The notes under the pieces were generated by a model that was not told the DNA's origin, made no database searches, and saw nothing but the letters and a program-made list of their open reading frames with translations. The position numbers and the translations under genes were made by a program. Source: Solibacteraceae bacterium (GTDB lineage Bacteria; Acidobacteriota; Terriglobia; Bryobacterales; Bryobacteraceae). From it: a stretch of 64,000 nucleotides of DNA. Numbering within the stretch: position 1 is the stretch's first letter; each line of letters opens with the position of its first letter. Positions 18,380 through 38,679 of the stretch are shown piece after piece. The stretch is from NCBI GenBank assembly GCA_021324015.1, contig JAJPJX010000105.1, positions 1 through 64,000 on the forward strand, written 5' to 3'.

Positions 18380-18399
18380 GGGTGCTACTGGCGTCAACC

Positions 18400-19569
18400 A
18401 TGAGCGACCGAGTATACATTTTCGACACCACGCTGCGGGATGGCGAGCAATCGCCGGGCTGCAGCATGACCGTGCACGAGAAGCTGGGAATGGCGCGCAA
18501 GCTGGTCGAACTGGGCGTGGATATCCTGGAGGCGGGCTTTCCGATCGCCTCCGACGGGGATTTCGAGGCCGTGGACGCCGTCAGCCGGGAGTATCCGTGG
18601 GCGCAGGTAGCGGCCCTGGCGCGGTCCTGCACGGGCGACGTGGAGCGGGCGGCACAGGCGTTGCGGCACGCCAAACGGCCGCGCATTCACACGTTCATCG
18701 CCACCAGCGATATCCACCTGAAGTACAAGCTCAAAAAGTCGCGGCAGCAGGTGCTGGACGAAGCCGTAGCCGCCGTGGAACTGGCGCGGCAGCACGTGGA
18801 CGACGTGGAATTTTCCGCCGAGGACGGCGCGCGCACGGATCCGGATTATCTGGAGCAGATCTCCAAGGCGGTGGTCGCCGCCGGGGCGCGCACCGTGAAC
18901 ATTCCCGATACCGTGGGATACTCGGTGCCCGAGGAATACGGAGCGTTGATCGGGCGCATCGCACGGGCGCTGGGGGATTGCGCGATTGTCAGCGTGCACT
19001 GCCACGACGACCTGGGCCTGGCGGTAGCCAACTCGGTGGCGGCGGTGCGCGCCGGCGCGCGGCAGATTGAATGCACCATCAACGGCATCGGGGAGCGGGC
19101 GGGCAACTGTTCGCTCGAAGAAGTGGTCATGATTTTCAAGACCCGGCACGACCAGTTGCCGTATCACACCAGCATTCACACCGAACATCTATACTCGGCC
19201 AGCCAGCTATTGAGCTCCATCATCACTTTCGGACCGCAGCCCAACAAAGCCATCGTGGGGCGGAATGCGTTCGCGCACGAGGCCGGCATCCACCAGGACG
19301 GCTATCTGAAGGAGAAGAGCACCTACGAGATTATCGACCCGCGGTCGGTGGGCGTGCCCGAAGGGCGCCTGGTGCTGGGCAAGCACAGCGGCCGGCACGC
19401 GCTGAAGCAACGCTGCCAGGACTTGGGCTACGAGCTGACGCGCGAGGAACTGGACGATCTTTACCACCGCTTCACCACGCTGGCGGACCGCAAGAAGGGT
19501 CTCATGGACGAAGAGATCATTGCGCTGATTCACGAGGGACAGAAGGTCCAGCAGGTGGCCGCGGATTAG
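18400..19569 (+). CDS. leuA: 2-isopropylmalate synthase lacking the C-terminal regulatory domain
   Basis: 389 residues from ATG 18400 (a GTG at 18382 is in frame). Motifs: [13 protein letters not shown] near the start, the metal-binding HCHDDLG, the catalytic-region GIGERAGN, and [13 protein letters not shown]. It condenses 2-oxoisovalerate with acetyl-CoA as the first step of leucine synthesis. The protein ends after the linker subdomain ([14 protein letters not shown]). The usual LeuA dimer/regulatory domain of about 120-130 residues that senses leucine is absent, and leuB starts 22 bp later, so this is the natural end and not a visible frameshift. Homocitrate-synthase-like activity is the main alternative, but the leu context argues against it. 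Confidence 0.92.
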
Positions 19570-19591
19570 CCGCCAGGGACCCCGATAGTCG

Positions 19592-20677
19592 ATGAACCTG
19601 AATATTCTGGTATTGCCCGGAGACGGGATTGGGACCGAGGTTACGCGCGAGGCGGTGCGCGTTTTGCGCCACGTGGCGCGGAAGTGGAATCACACCCTGC
19701 ATCTGAGCGAGGGCTTGCTGGGGGGGATCGCGATTCACCGCACGGGGACCCCGTTTCCGGAGCAGACGGAGCGGCTGGCGCTGGCCGCCGACGCCACTCT
19801 GATGGGCGCGGTAGGGCTGCCGGAATTCGACAACGTGCCTCCGGAGAAGCGGCCCGAAAAGGGCCTGCTGGGAATCCGGAAGGCCCTGGGAGTGTACGCG
19901 AACCTGCGCCCCGTGCGAACTTACTCGGCGCTGCTGGACGCCTCGCCGCTGAAGAACCACCTGGTGGACGGCACGGACATGATCATCGTGCGCGAACTGA
20001 CCGGCGGCATCTACTACGGCACGCCGCGGGGCATCCTGGAAGACGGCGGCGAGACGCGCGCGGTCAACACCATGACTTACACGCGGGCGGAGATCGAGCG
20101 GGTGTCGCGCATGGCGTTCCACCTGGCGCGCGGGCGGCGCAAGAAAGTCACCTCGGTGGACAAGTCGAACGTGCTGGAAAATTCGCAGCTCTGGCGGCGG
20201 GTGGTGACCGAGGTGGCCGCCGAGTTCCCGGACGTCGCGCTGGATCACCTGCTAGTGGACAACTGCGCCATGCAACTGGTGTTGAATCCGCGCCGCTTCG
20301 ACGTGGTGCTGACGGAGAACATGTTCGGCGACATTTTGAGCGACGAGGGTGCGGTGCTGGCCGGGTCGATCGGGATGCTGCCTTCGGCCTCCATCGGGGA
20401 CCGGAAGCCTTCGGGGGCGTGGGTCGGGCTGTACGAGCCGGTACACGGTTCGGCGCCGGACATCGCGGGTCAGAACAAAGCCAATCCGCTGGGCGCCATC
20501 GGCTCGGTGGCGGCCATGCTGGAATACAGTTTCGGTTTGAAGGAAGAGGCCGGGGCGGTGAACGCCGCCATGGAGGCTGTCCTCCAAAGCGGCAAAGTCA
20601 CCGCCGACCTCAGGCCTTCGGGCGCTCCCGCCACCACCGAACAGGTTGGTGAAGCGGTCTGCGCCGCGATCGGATAG
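19592..20677 (+). CDS. leuB: 3-isopropylmalate dehydrogenase
   Basis: 361 residues of the isocitrate/isopropylmalate dehydrogenase family: [14 protein letters not shown] at the start, [23 protein letters not shown], the substrate-binding [10 protein letters not shown], and [19 protein letters not shown] with the NAD-binding [13 protein letters not shown]. It oxidises and decarboxylates 3-isopropylmalate in the cytoplasm. Second gene of the leuABCD operon; the gap to leuC is 79 bp without recognisable terminator. Confidence 0.96.
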
Positions 20678-34654: not shown

Positions 34655-35425
34655 TTACGGCTCAAGGGAGGGCCACCTAGGTGGCCGCTTCTCCAGAAAG
34701 GCCCGGATCCCCTCCTGGCAATCCGGGGTTTCGAAGTTCTCGTCGCGCAGCGACCGGCAGACGCGGCCGGCTTGCTCCCAGGAAAGCCCGCGGATCAGGC
34801 GAAAGGAGGTCAACCCGCTGCGGAGCACAGCGGGGCTGGAGGCGGCGAGGGCTGCGGCGACCTGGCGCGCGTGCGCCTGCAACTCGCCGCGAGGAACCAC
34901 CTGATGCACCAAGCCGCATTCGGCGGCCTCCCGGGCGCCGCAAATGCGGCCGGTAAGGCTCCATTCGAGGGCCCTGCGCTCGCCGACAGCCTGGATGACG
35001 CCGCGCAGCACCACAAACGGCCAGAGGCCGATGCGAACCTCGGTCAGACCGAACTGGGCGTCTTCGGCTGCCACGACGACGTGACAGGCGGCCACCAGAC
35101 CCGTGCCGCCCGCCAGGGCGGCCCCTTGAACGGCGGCGACCAGCGGCTTGTTGAGACGGACTCCCACACTGAACAAGCGCTCGTGGGCGGTATTGATGGC
35201 CGCGGAGTCCACTCCGAGTACTTCCTTCAGGTCCATGCCTGAGCAGAACGATTTTCCGTTTGCTTCGAGCAGGATAGCGCCCACGCCGGGGTCCGCGTCA
35301 GCGGCGTCACAGGCATCCGCCAAGGCCTGGCACAGTTCCAGGTTCAGCGCGTTGCGCTTCTCGGGCCGGTTCAACGTCAGGCGCAGCAGGCGGCCTTCGC
35401 GTTCACTCAGCAAGCTCGTGCTCAT
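34655..35425 (-). CDS. Enoyl-CoA hydratase/isomerase family protein
   Basis: 256 residues from ATG 35425 ([20 protein letters not shown]). Crotonase fold: LNRPEKRNALN, the oxyanion-hole segments GKSFCSGMDLKEV and QGAALAGGTGLVAACHVVVA, with the catalytic Glu probably in LTEVRIGLWP. Last gene of a four-gene overlapping operon with the AtuA proteins and the carboxyltransferase. By analogy to AtuE/LiuC it would hydrate a branched glutaconyl-CoA product of the carboxylase. The 23-bp overlap with the preceding gene supports coupling. Confidence 0.9.
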   Translation of the reverse strand: MSTSLLSEREGRLLRLTLNRPEKRNALNLELCQALADACDAADADPGVGAILLEANGKSFCSGMDLKEVLGVDSAAINTAHERLFSVGVRLNKPLVAAVQGAALAGGTGLVAACHVVVAAEDAQFGLTEVRIGLWPFVVLRGVIQAVGERRALEWSLTGRICGAREAAECGLVHQVVPRGELQAHARQVAAALAASSPAVLRSGLTSFRLIRGLSWEQAGRVCRSLRDENFETPDCQEGIRAFLEKRPPRWPSLEP

Positions 35426-35735
35426 GGACCTCGATCTCCAGGGAAAGCAGGGCGGCGCCGAAGGTCTTGCCCTGCGCGTCCGTGCGCAGGGAAACCGTGC
35501 CGCCGCCGCCCAAGGCACCGTGCAGCAGGAAATTCAGCGCCGACAGATTCGGCAACTCATAGCGGACTACGTCGCCCGAGACGAGGTTGCCGAACCAGGC
35601 CTTGACGCGGGCGGGGGTCAGCTCGCGCAACAGGATGGGATAGTGGCGCTCCTGCCAGGCGATGACTCCGATGTTGGCAGTATCGCCCTTGTCCCCGGAG
35701 CGGGTGTGAGCGATGCGCGAAAGGGGTACCTTCAT
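35403..35735 (-). CDS. AtuA C-terminal-like small protein
   Basis: 110 residues from ATG 35735 ([20 protein letters not shown]). This matches the domain that forms the C-terminus of longer AtuA-type proteins (ferredoxin-like fold), here encoded separately. The start overlaps the AtuA-family stop by 4 bp and the 3' end overlaps the hydratase gene. It probably works in complex with the preceding protein; biochemical activity unknown. Confidence 0.8.
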
Positions 35736-37066
35736 TCCACCACCTCCACGCGGGTCTGGATCTCTTCGCGGGGGATCAGCGCCGACCAATAGGCCACGAT
35801 TTCGCGCACCGGGGGACGACCTTCGCCATAGCCGGTAGCTCCCGGCGGACCGCTCAGCACCAGGGGGATCAGTTCCCGCGTGAAGCGGTCCACCGCCTTA
35901 CGGTCAAAACCACGGACGCCGATACGGAGCTGCACTTCGGGGGGATCGGCCGCCGGAGGAGCGGCTGGGCCGTGGCAGGCGTTCACCCCGAAAAACTCGG
36001 TGTAGATCTCGTCGAACGAAAGACCCAGCCGGGCCAGGCGGCGGCGGACGACACGGTCGGCCGCCTGAGCCTTCTCGAGCGCCTGAGGGTGGCTGTAGAC
36101 CAGCGTGCCGATGGCCTTCCAGCCATCCGAATAGCTGATGGAGAGCTTCAAGGTAGGCGGGCGTGGACTGCCGCGGATGCCGGAGACGCGCACGCGATCG
36201 GGACCAGCATCGGCTAAGCGGATGGACGTGAAATCGGCGATGCAATCCGGGGTGATGTAGCGCTGCGGGTCCCCGAGCTCGTAGAGCAATTGTTCTTTGA
36301 CGACGTCGGTAGAGACGCGGCCTCCGGCGGCGGCGTGCTTAGTGACACAGAAGGAGCCGTCCGGCTCGGCTTCGATGATGGGGTAGCCGATTTCGTCCAA
36401 GTCAGCGATATTCTGCCAGTCCACCTGGCAATTGCCCCCGGTGGTCTGGGCGCCGCACTCGATGATGTGGCCGGCAATGGTACCCGCGGCCAGGCGGTCC
36501 CAGTCGTCCGCCGCCCAGCCGTAGTGATGGACCATGGGGGCCAGAGTAAGAGCAGTATCGGTGGAGCGCCCGGCGATCACCACATGTGCGCCCGAGGCCA
36601 GGGCTTCGGCCAGGGGGAATGCGCCGATGTACGCATTGGCGCTGAGGATACGATCGCGGATGGTGGAGAGCGGGCGGCCGGTGTCCAGGTCCGGCATTTC
36701 GTAGCCCTTGCCCAAAAACTCGTCCAGCCGCGGGAAGACATCGTCGCCCAGGACCACGGCGACTTTCAGGCCGGGGGCAAGCTGGCGCACGGCCCGGGCG
36801 CAGGCGACCGGATTCACCCCGCCAGCATTAGCGATGACCCTCACGTCGCGGTCCAACAGTTTTTTCGAGATGCGGCCGATGAGGGAGGGGAAGTCCCGGG
36901 CGTAGCCGAGGTTGGGATCGGCCTGCCGCTGCTTTTGCAGGATCGACATGGTGACTTCGGCCAGGTAATCCAGGACCAGGTAGTCGATGGGGCCCTGATC
37001 GATGAGCCGAACCGGCGCTTCCAGCCAGTCCCCCCAGAAGCCTTGGCCGTTGGCGATGCGGATCAT
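35732..37066 (-). CDS. Acyclic terpene utilization AtuA family protein (DUF1446)
   Basis: 444 residues. Conserved stretches: [12 protein letters not shown] at the start, [66 protein letters not shown]. This is the DUF1446/AtuA family, genetically required for citronellol/geraniol breakdown in Pseudomonas but of unknown reaction. The ATG overlaps the carboxyltransferase stop by 4 bp and its own stop overlaps the next start by 4 bp, so all are translated as one unit. Confidence 0.9.
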
Positions 37067-38679
37067 AGGGTTTCGAGGACGAGGTGGGGAGCGCGCGGGC
37101 GGTGCAGGACGATTTCCAGAGCCAGCGCGAGCACCTCCCGGGTTTCCTGGGGATCGATAAGGGCATCCACGTGGCCGCGCGCCGCGGCGTAGCGGGCATC
37201 CAGCCAGCGCTCGTAATCGGCCCGGGTTTTCCCGATGGACTCTTCGAGTTCGGCGGGCAGCGGCCGGCCGGCGGACTTGTACTTCTCGATTTCGGCCGAG
37301 AAGAGGGCCTGCACGGCGGAGTCGCCTTCCATCACCCCTATGCGGGCGCTGGGCCAGCTAAAGGTGAAGTTGGGGTCGAAGCCCTGCCCCGCCATGGCGT
37401 AGTAGCCCGCGCCGCTGGCGTGGTTGAGGGTGAGCACGATTTTGGGCACGCTGGCGCAGGCCATGGATTCGACCATTTCCGCGCCGGCGCGAATGATACC
37501 GTTGCGTTCGGCTTCGGGGCCCACCATGAAACCCGAAACGTCCTGTAGATAAATGAGCGGGTGTGCCAGGCGTTCGGCGGTTTCGACGAAGTAGGAAACC
37601 TTGCGGGCCGATTCCGTGTAAACGATGCCGCCGATGCGCGGGCGGCCTTCGGCTTTGAGGAAGCCGCGGCGGTTGGCGATCAGGGCTACCGGTTGTCCGG
37701 AGAGGCGCGCGTGGGCGCAGAGCATCTCGGGCGCGTACTCGGGCTGAAACTCGAGGTATTCCTCGCCGTCGAAAATGCGCAGGATCACCTCTTCGACGTC
37801 GTAGGGCAGGCGGTGGTCCGGCGGGAGGATTCCGTAAAGGTCTTGGGCAGGGGCCTGGGGCGGGACTCCCGTGCCGGTTGGAGGAGGCGGCGGCAGACCC
37901 CGGAAATGGGTCCGGATGCGCGCCAGGCAGTCTGCGTCGTTCTCCGCAAGGTAATGCGCCACACCACTGGAGGCAGTGTGCAGGCGGGCGCCCCCGAGGG
38001 GCTCCGAGTCGATCACCTGGCCGGTGGCGCCCTTGACGAGGTTCGGCCCCCCAAGGCCCATGAAGCTGGTGTTTTCGACCATGATGATGAGGTCGCTGAG
38101 CGCGGGAAGATAGGCGCCGCCGGCGATGCAGGGGCCCATGACGGCGGCAATCTGCGGCACACGGAGCTTGCGCCGCATAAGGGAATTATAGTAGAAAATG
38201 CGGGCCGCGCCGTACTGCCCGGGGAAAATGCCGTCCTGGTAGGGCAGATTCACACCCGCGGAATCCACCAGGTAGACGATGGGGATGCGGTTGCGCATGG
38301 CGATTTCCTGCGCCCGCAGGATCTTGCGGATGGTTTCCGGCCACCATGCGCCAGCCTTGACCGTGGCGTCGTTGGCGACGATGACCGCCGGACGGCCTTC
38401 GATCTTGCCCACCCCGGTGACAACGCCGGCGGCGGGCGCCTGGCCGTCATATTGATCCCAGGCCACGAGCAGGCCGATCTCCAGGAAGCGCGCGCCGGCG
38501 TCGAGCAGGGCGGCAATGCGTTCGCGCGCGGTCATCTTGCCGGCGCGGTGTTGTTTTTCGATTTTCGAGGGGCCGCCGCCGGCGCGCAGCCGCTCCTCCA
38601 GGCGTTTGACCTGATCCACCAGGTGGCGCATGTGCGCCACGCGGGCGATTTTGGAGGCAGCCTCAGGAGTGGTTGGCAC
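37063..38679 (-). CDS. Acyl-CoA carboxylase beta (carboxyltransferase) subunit
   Basis: 538 residues with the tandem crotonase-like carboxyltransferase domains: [46 protein letters not shown], then the second half with [12 protein letters not shown] and [20 protein letters not shown]. It most resembles methylcrotonyl-CoA / geranyl-CoA carboxylase beta subunits. The biotin carboxylase / biotin carrier alpha subunit is not in the window. It heads the AtuA operon. Confidence 0.92.

Follow-up and report, generated by a model that had tools for sequence, protein, structure and literature searches.

What reaction does AtuA carry out when it is encoded as two separate chains, between a carboxyltransferase and a hydratase? 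The question is raised by four genes on the minus strand of the 64,000-nucleotide stretch analyzed here (the window), which lies on contig C61 (JAJPJX010000105.1) of the 8.2-Mb genome of a soil acidobacterium (Solibacteraceae). They encode a beta-type carboxyltransferase (CT; 37063..38679, GTG start, 538 amino acids; PF01039, Carboxyl_trans, 451.1 bits), a large, CmlA-like chain of the AtuA family (35732..37066, ATG start, 444 amino acids), a small, CmlB-like chain of the AtuA ferredoxin-like type (35403..35735, ATG start, 110 amino acids) and a crotonase-family protein (34655..35425, ATG start, 256 amino acids; PF00378, ECH_1, 180.5 bits) that is presumed to be a 3-alkylglutaconyl-CoA hydratase. 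An earlier, sequence-only reading of the window had proposed four overlapping genes, and this was confirmed: all four frames are open, the overlaps are 4 bp (CT and AtuA), 4 bp (AtuA and small chain) and 23 bp (small chain and hydratase), and each of the four products has a Pfam match. Its comparison with the logic of the atu and liu gene sets also held, a carboxylase, a hydratase and AtuA all being present. We propose that the two AtuA chains form a lyase, which on balance probably acts on 3-hydroxy-3-methylglutaryl-CoA (HMG-CoA) in place of HMG-CoA lyase.

Fold and predicted reaction of the two AtuA chains

The large chain matched PF07287 over profile positions 1-436 of 437 with 491.6 bits (cut-off, 22.8), and the small chain matched PF23544 with 110.8 bits (cut-off, 27). 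Neither chain matched any NCBIfam model. By sequence, the large chain was only remotely related to citramalate lyase 9erq_A (E 0.011 with a single query and 3.7e-5 with a profile), and neither kind of search gave a convincing PDB relative for the small chain, for which the fold search alone found one. AlphaFold2 models built from alignments of 32 (large chain) and 33 (small chain) sequences had a mean predicted local distance difference test score of 92.0 and 91.9, respectively. With Foldseek, the top match of the large chain was chain A of PDB 9evf (E 1.1e-24; next row, 2.2e-4), entitled 'Citramalate lyase - ADP - pyruvate complex', and that of the small chain was chain B of the same entry (E 5.9e-4; next row, 0.09). 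Similarly, VIA-align superposed the large chain on 9evf_A with Z 29.6 over 410 residues (root mean square deviation, 3.7), the next row reaching Z 9.9 over one ferredoxin-like domain only, and the small chain on 9evf_B with Z 10.5 over 100 residues (root mean square deviation, 2.7; next row, Z 7.7). Judged from these models, it is well supported that AtuA and the small chain belong to the class of two-subunit carbon-carbon lyases of the CmlAB type. The lyase had been counted among the missing parts of the pathway, which was not borne out, since by fold the AtuA pair is one.

The AtuA of this locus had also been called split. It does consist of two separate chains, and one could imagine a decayed or misassembled atu remnant in which a frameshift had divided a fused AtuA, as fused forms of about 600 amino acids exist in other genomes. 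We regard such a remnant as extremely improbable. The models pair its chains with the two subunits of the solved citramalate lyase, and this AtuA is therefore no broken protein. Furthermore, the two-chain form is common: among 80 AtuA loci kept from the 595 relatives found, 53 encode the small chain in a separate frame beside AtuA. Both chains also keep residues that are invariant among relatives. In the large chain, these include Gly82-Gly83, Gly166-Arg167, Asp170 and Glu203-Cys204 (32 sequences), and the profile alignment to 9erq has similar GG, GR..D and EC stretches; at a guess, these residues may be catalytic. In the small chain, the motif RSGDKG is invariant (33 sequences). AtuA is thus often encoded by two genes, as natural subunits rather than a broken protein.

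The solved relative CmlAB (PDB 9erq and 9evf) likewise pairs a chain of about 450 amino acids with one of about 105; both have the same folds and carry the AtuA family name in the PDB, and the enzyme removes a carboxymethyl group from a tertiary carbinol. Unlike what we propose here, its substrate is a free acid, citramalate; its chains are only 16-19% identical to those of the window, and we know of no link between CmlAB and a carboxylase. Citramalate lyase yields pyruvate and acetate, as described in PMC4682846. ThnQS of anaerobic naphthalene degradation is described as two AtuA-like lyase genes whose products convert a tertiary-hydroxy CoA ester into a 3-oxoacyl-CoA. Its substrate is cyclic, and we liken it by description and not by sequence, so that ThnQ and ThnS are not matched to the large and small chains. 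In our own comparison, the bond that is cleaved by citramalate lyase, by ThnQS and in the reaction proposed for AtuA joins in each case a tertiary carbinol carbon to the carbon adjoining a free carboxylate. The fold gives the lyase class of the AtuA pair, and we infer its reaction from these three cases. Indeed, a gamma-carboxylase followed by a hydratase acting on a 3-methyl-2-enoyl-CoA gives such a tertiary carbinol, and the gene set therefore makes chemical sense.

We thus hypothesize that the CT, with a biotin carboxylase and carrier from elsewhere, would carboxylate the gamma carbon of a 3-methyl-2-enoyl-CoA, as its lineage suggests; that the hydratase would add water to the resulting 3-alkylglutaconyl-CoA; and that the AtuA pair would break the bond joining the tertiary carbinol to the carboxymethyl group, with a 3-oxoacyl-CoA and acetate as products. 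The substrate of the hydratase is taken from the position of its gene, because, although 72 crotonase-type NCBIfam models match, none of the best 25 of the 72 exceeds its own cut-off. The likeliest starting substrate would be 3-methylcrotonyl-CoA from leucine or isovalerate. The AtuA pair would then split HMG-CoA into acetoacetyl-CoA and acetate, instead of acetoacetate and acetyl-CoA; that HMG-CoA is its substrate, and HMG-CoA lyase the enzyme it replaces, is our prediction, likely though far from certain. The enzyme kit is ordinary; the pathway reading is not. A terpenoid or branched acyl-CoA route had been suggested for this locus: we found nothing that favors terpenoids, and the genome comparison fits leucine or isovalerate better.

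The known routes resemble the window in part. In the atu route of Pseudomonas and Thauera (AtuA, AtuC/AtuF, AtuE), a carboxylase, a hydratase and an AtuA lyase act in sequence on a 3-methyl-branched acyl-CoA. However, AtuA is described there as one long chain (615 amino acids in Thauera), the cluster includes dehydrogenases, a CoA ligase, the alpha subunit and a regulator, and the beta subunit of its geranyl-CoA carboxylase (GCC) has a glycine and a shorter loop at the acyl pocket. In the Liu pathway of leucine and isovalerate, the carboxylase and hydratase share an operon with a third enzyme in the same position, but this enzyme is HMG-CoA lyase, of the PF00682 family, and not a two-chain AtuA lyase, and the window CT lacks the signature of 3-methylcrotonyl-CoA carboxylase (MCC).

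Leucine degradation is usually assumed to end with HMG-CoA lyase, and genomes without this enzyme are read as lacking the pathway. If our proposal is true, genomes of Acidobacteriota, Bacteroidota, Balneolota, Gemmatimonadota and other groups may be misread for leucine degradation, and AtuA (DUF1446), widely annotated but hardly characterized, gains a defined and testable reaction. Our searches of open-licence papers brought up no description of an AtuA-type HMG-CoA lyase.

A variant of this ending would be ATP dependent: the AtuA pair would phosphorylate the free carboxyl group of HMG-CoA and cut it to acetoacetyl-CoA and acetyl phosphate, from which, in several phyla, a phosphotransacetylase encoded next to the pair would make acetyl-CoA. 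Hints in this direction are the ADP in 9evf and a phosphotransacetylase-family gene adjoining the AtuA pair in 10 of the 80 loci (7 in Planctomycetota, 2 in Zhongshania and 1 in Nocardioides) and also in Rhodococcus gordoniae (stretches L276, L278, L279, L281, L282, L286, L301, L305, L307 and L311; L101). All three such genes tested matched PF01515, and two of the three passed the phosphate acetyltransferase equivalog cut-off. However, ADP may mimic part of CoA, and the four-gene unit of the window holds no phosphotransacetylase gene. We consider this variant a tentative one, with perhaps one chance in a few.

Lineage of the carboxyltransferase and partners elsewhere in the genome

According to PMC4673880, the MCC beta subunit has an N-terminal helix and a phenylalanine in the acyl pocket (Phe191), GCC beta has a glycine at that site and a loop three residues shorter, and the beta subunit of propionyl-CoA carboxylase (PCC) lacks the extended N-terminal helix. 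Phe191 of MCC blocks geranyl-CoA, and GCC accepts both 3-methylcrotonyl-CoA and geranyl-CoA (PMC4673880). The PDB relatives of the window CT are AccD1, MCC beta, PCC beta and GCC beta. It aligns with MCC beta 3u9r from residue 4 on, so that by alignment it has the N-terminal helix, and it carries Ala158 in place of the diagnostic phenylalanine. It has neither the glycine nor the three-residue shortening of GCC beta. We then placed it in a tree of 75 CTs (IQ-TREE, LG+C20 PMSF). The 45 window-type CTs formed a clade (support 97/95) that, together with one long-branch row, was sister to MCC and GCC combined. L131, labeled window type from a 36% match, forms a long branch, and the counts do not include it; L128, L304 and L108 likewise form long branches. 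By its place in this tree, the window CT belongs to a third lineage beside MCC beta and GCC beta. The phylogeny had been named beforehand as a test that could refute the earlier reading, and the window CT fell outside the propionyl-CoA carboxylases. These lineage marks leave the CT substrate unfixed: with a pocket as open as that of GCC, it may take both 3-methylcrotonyl-CoA and geranyl-CoA.

The biotin-carrying alpha subunit had been reported missing from this locus, which we could confirm. Besides two partial accA/accD-like matches, the genome has one other beta-type CT, on contig C17, which as a long branch (L064) lies outside the group of MCC, GCC and window-type CTs. There are three biotin carboxylases: one on C17 (500 amino acids) with an adjoining carrier gene, one on C209 next to an AccB-like carrier, and one on C110 within a 1,165-amino-acid frame that also holds HMGL-like and carrier domains and is a pyruvate carboxylase. 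Since the C209 and C110 enzymes are AccC and pyruvate carboxylase, only the C17 enzyme is neither, and the C17 pair is the likely alpha partner of the window CT, shared with the CT of C17.

HMG-CoA lyase was found neither at the locus nor elsewhere in the draft genome (98.8% complete): the best match to NF004283 reached only E 4.8e-13, with none above the curated cut-off. The five HMGL-like matches of the genome include LeuA in the window and the pyruvate carboxylase frame of C110. Mevalonate was rejected as a source of HMG-CoA, as the genome has no match to HMG-CoA reductase. Eight E1-type matches to branched-chain 2-oxoacid dehydrogenase are present, whose substrate these matches do not resolve. 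Isovaleryl-CoA dehydrogenase was tried and rejected as a marker of leucine catabolism: a Sphingomonas query had hits with E values of 1e-70 or lower in 243 of the 297 genomes compared (38-46% identity, with one at 60%, among the matches listed) and fails to separate other acyl-CoA dehydrogenases.

Gene neighborhoods of AtuA

Around AtuA of near relatives, the order CT, AtuA, small chain, hydratase was found in 6 of 20 stretches; ten of these 20 stretches contain a window-type CT, which in one case lies at a distance of 5 kb. In the wider phylum, 9 of 60 stretches have the same order, one with an AMP-binding gene inside and four with a CT carrying the MCC-type phenylalanine (Phe-type CT). Because it recurs in both sets, the order is not due to chance. 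Additionally, two stretches of the same class (L346 and L347) have the order Phe-type CT, HMG-CoA lyase, hydratase, with an acyl-CoA dehydrogenase in front in L346; the slot of HMG-CoA lyase there is that of the AtuA pair in the window. With a single query, HMG-CoA lyase was found in none of the 160 stretches around AtuA and in all six canonical stretches.

Phe-type CTs adjoin unfused AtuA in 10 loci of five phyla: four acidobacterial families, Bacteroidota (2), Balneolota, KSB1 and Neomarinimicrobiota (2). Eight of these loci encode the small chain in a separate frame, eight have a hydratase, and seven keep the order of the window (one with an AMP-binding gene inside). The four acidobacterial genomes among them contain no HMG-CoA lyase above the cut-off. 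Furthermore, on plasmids of Halalkalicoccus and Salinigranum (L102:6724-9663 and L206:6733-9696), a degradative HMG-CoA reductase gene, confirmed by Pfam in both, overlaps the AtuA gene, which in turn overlaps the small-chain gene; this is perhaps an operon for mevalonate breakdown. The strongest indications that HMG-CoA can serve as the substrate of an AtuA pair come from the Phe-type loci and these overlaps.

In a tree of 53 AtuA sequences (FastTree), the window group (35 rows, support 0.84) contains AtuA with window-type, Phe-type and GCC-type CT neighbors, interleaved. For this reason, the AtuA family fits 3-hydroxy-3-alkylglutaryl-CoA substrates of varying alkyl length, and in the window the length may differ from that of HMG-CoA. 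A separate branch (L104, L110, L111, L121, L140, L158 and L113; support 1.0, midpoint root) lies far from the window AtuA. In six of the seven loci, AtuA comes after a gene for a citrate:proton symporter, and in the seventh (L113) after TRAP transporter genes; these AtuA are perhaps citrate or citramalate lyases.

These relatives bear on whether the lyase of the window has a tertiary hydroxy acid of another kind, or a free one, as its substrate, such as citramalate or citrate, the CT and hydratase genes being only loosely clustered with it. The solved relative is a citramalate lyase, and a citrate:proton symporter precedes AtuA pairs in six genomes (Azospirillum, Mycetohabitans, Roseomonas and three acidobacteria). 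The sequence-only reading had proposed linkage of AtuA to unrelated enzymes in most genomes as a refuting test: any CT was found within 8-kb flanks, many of which end early at contig ends, in only 24 of the 80 loci, leaving 56 without one, and some relatives adjoin citrate transporters. However, the symporter-linked AtuA are on the separate branch, together with the TRAP-linked one, and in our genome comparison the window-type CT co-occurs with AtuA even when the two are not adjacent. An action on free acids at this locus therefore seems quite unlikely to us.

Several further arrangements were seen around AtuA. In relatives from the window's own taxonomic order (L053, L055 and L057-L061), AtuA is kept, but neither a small chain nor a hydratase of these types could be detected across 16-17 kb; L053 has a biotin-carboxylase match upstream. 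In L052 (genome G009), the AtuA stretch has two TAA stops and the four-gene order is kept. On a Shinella plasmid (L107:7630-9338), the usual order is reversed, with the small-chain gene ahead of that for AtuA. AtuA pairs with genes for branched-chain 2-oxoacid dehydrogenase nearby also occur in Natrinema and genome G094 (L108 and L128).

AtuA, carboxyltransferases and HMG-CoA lyase across the phylum

We then compared 297 genomes of the phylum. AtuA was present in 92 (104 before twelve genomes with AtuA matches below 60 bits, or in one case 78 with neighbors, were dropped), HMG-CoA lyase above the cut-off in 90 and the window-type CT, counted at an identity of at least 60% (the next CTs are at 49% or below), in 35. 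All 35 genomes with the window-type CT have AtuA, compared with 57 of the 262 others (p 7e-21), and only 5 of the 35 have HMG-CoA lyase above the cut-off, compared with 85 of 262 (p 0.03). A CT and a match to the HMG-CoA lyase model were at most 10 kb apart in 0 of 35 genomes versus 47 of 262 (p 0.002), a test that holds for the matches listed only, at any score, with weak CT and lyase matches falling outside it. As the genomes are related, these p values are descriptive and overstate independence. No exclusion was seen between AtuA of all types and HMG-CoA lyase (Fisher p 0.28), only between the window-type CT and HMG-CoA lyase.

Besides these limits, a number of observations weigh against HMG-CoA as the substrate in the window. 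AtuA overall does not exclude HMG-CoA lyase, as 32 of the 297 genomes hold both. The five window-type-CT genomes mentioned above have a protein above the HMG-CoA lyase cut-off (301-348 bits; the phylum's best exceed 400). The window-type CT adjoins AtuA in only 7 of the 35 genomes; the two are about 4-17 kb apart in 10 and on different contigs in 18, two of which belong to the window's own family. In G116 and G137, a fused AtuA adjoins a Phe-type CT although HMG-CoA lyase is present; in G053, which has no HMG-CoA lyase above the cut-off, the fused AtuA beside a Phe-type CT looks broken. The Sphingomonas query distinguished no isovaleryl-CoA dehydrogenase ortholog, and in the window genome, a draft of 214 contigs, the absence of HMG-CoA lyase is not proof.

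The CT itself adds to this, and here one has to weigh the same three-step chemistry on a longer 3-methyl-branched acyl-CoA, like that of the Pseudomonas atu route: geranyl-CoA, acids like the diffusible signal factor or further isoprenoid acids. Among window-type CTs, the site of Phe191 is Ala in 43 of 45 and Gly in 2 of 45, which would remove the obstacle that geranyl-CoA meets in MCC, so that a roomier pocket and a longer substrate are possible. Additionally, CTs with the GCC signature lie near unfused AtuA in Rhodococcus gordoniae, Nocardioides and three acidobacterial loci (L116, L164 and L250). However, the window CT keeps the full-length loop and branches outside MCC and GCC, and the locus contains none of atuB, D, F, G and H or the regulator atuR, only the CT, the AtuA pair and the hydratase. 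Moreover, Atu degradation is described as ending in 3-methylcrotonyl-CoA, which then enters the Liu pathway. As neither a second MCC-type CT nor HMG-CoA lyase was found in the genome, the same enzymes would need to handle the C5/C6 steps too. A longer substrate is in our judgment possible but doubtful, and we continue to prefer HMG-CoA.

The four-gene unit has a PAP2 gene upstream and, downstream, an SMC gene in the same orientation, and its AtuA is the only copy in the genome. The closest named relatives of this genome (contamination, 4.2%; G+C content of the window, 65%) are Bryobacteraceae and other Terriglobia (Acidobacteriota). The leucine biosynthesis genes leuA and leuB lie on the plus strand at 18382-20677 of the window, about 14 kb from the cluster.

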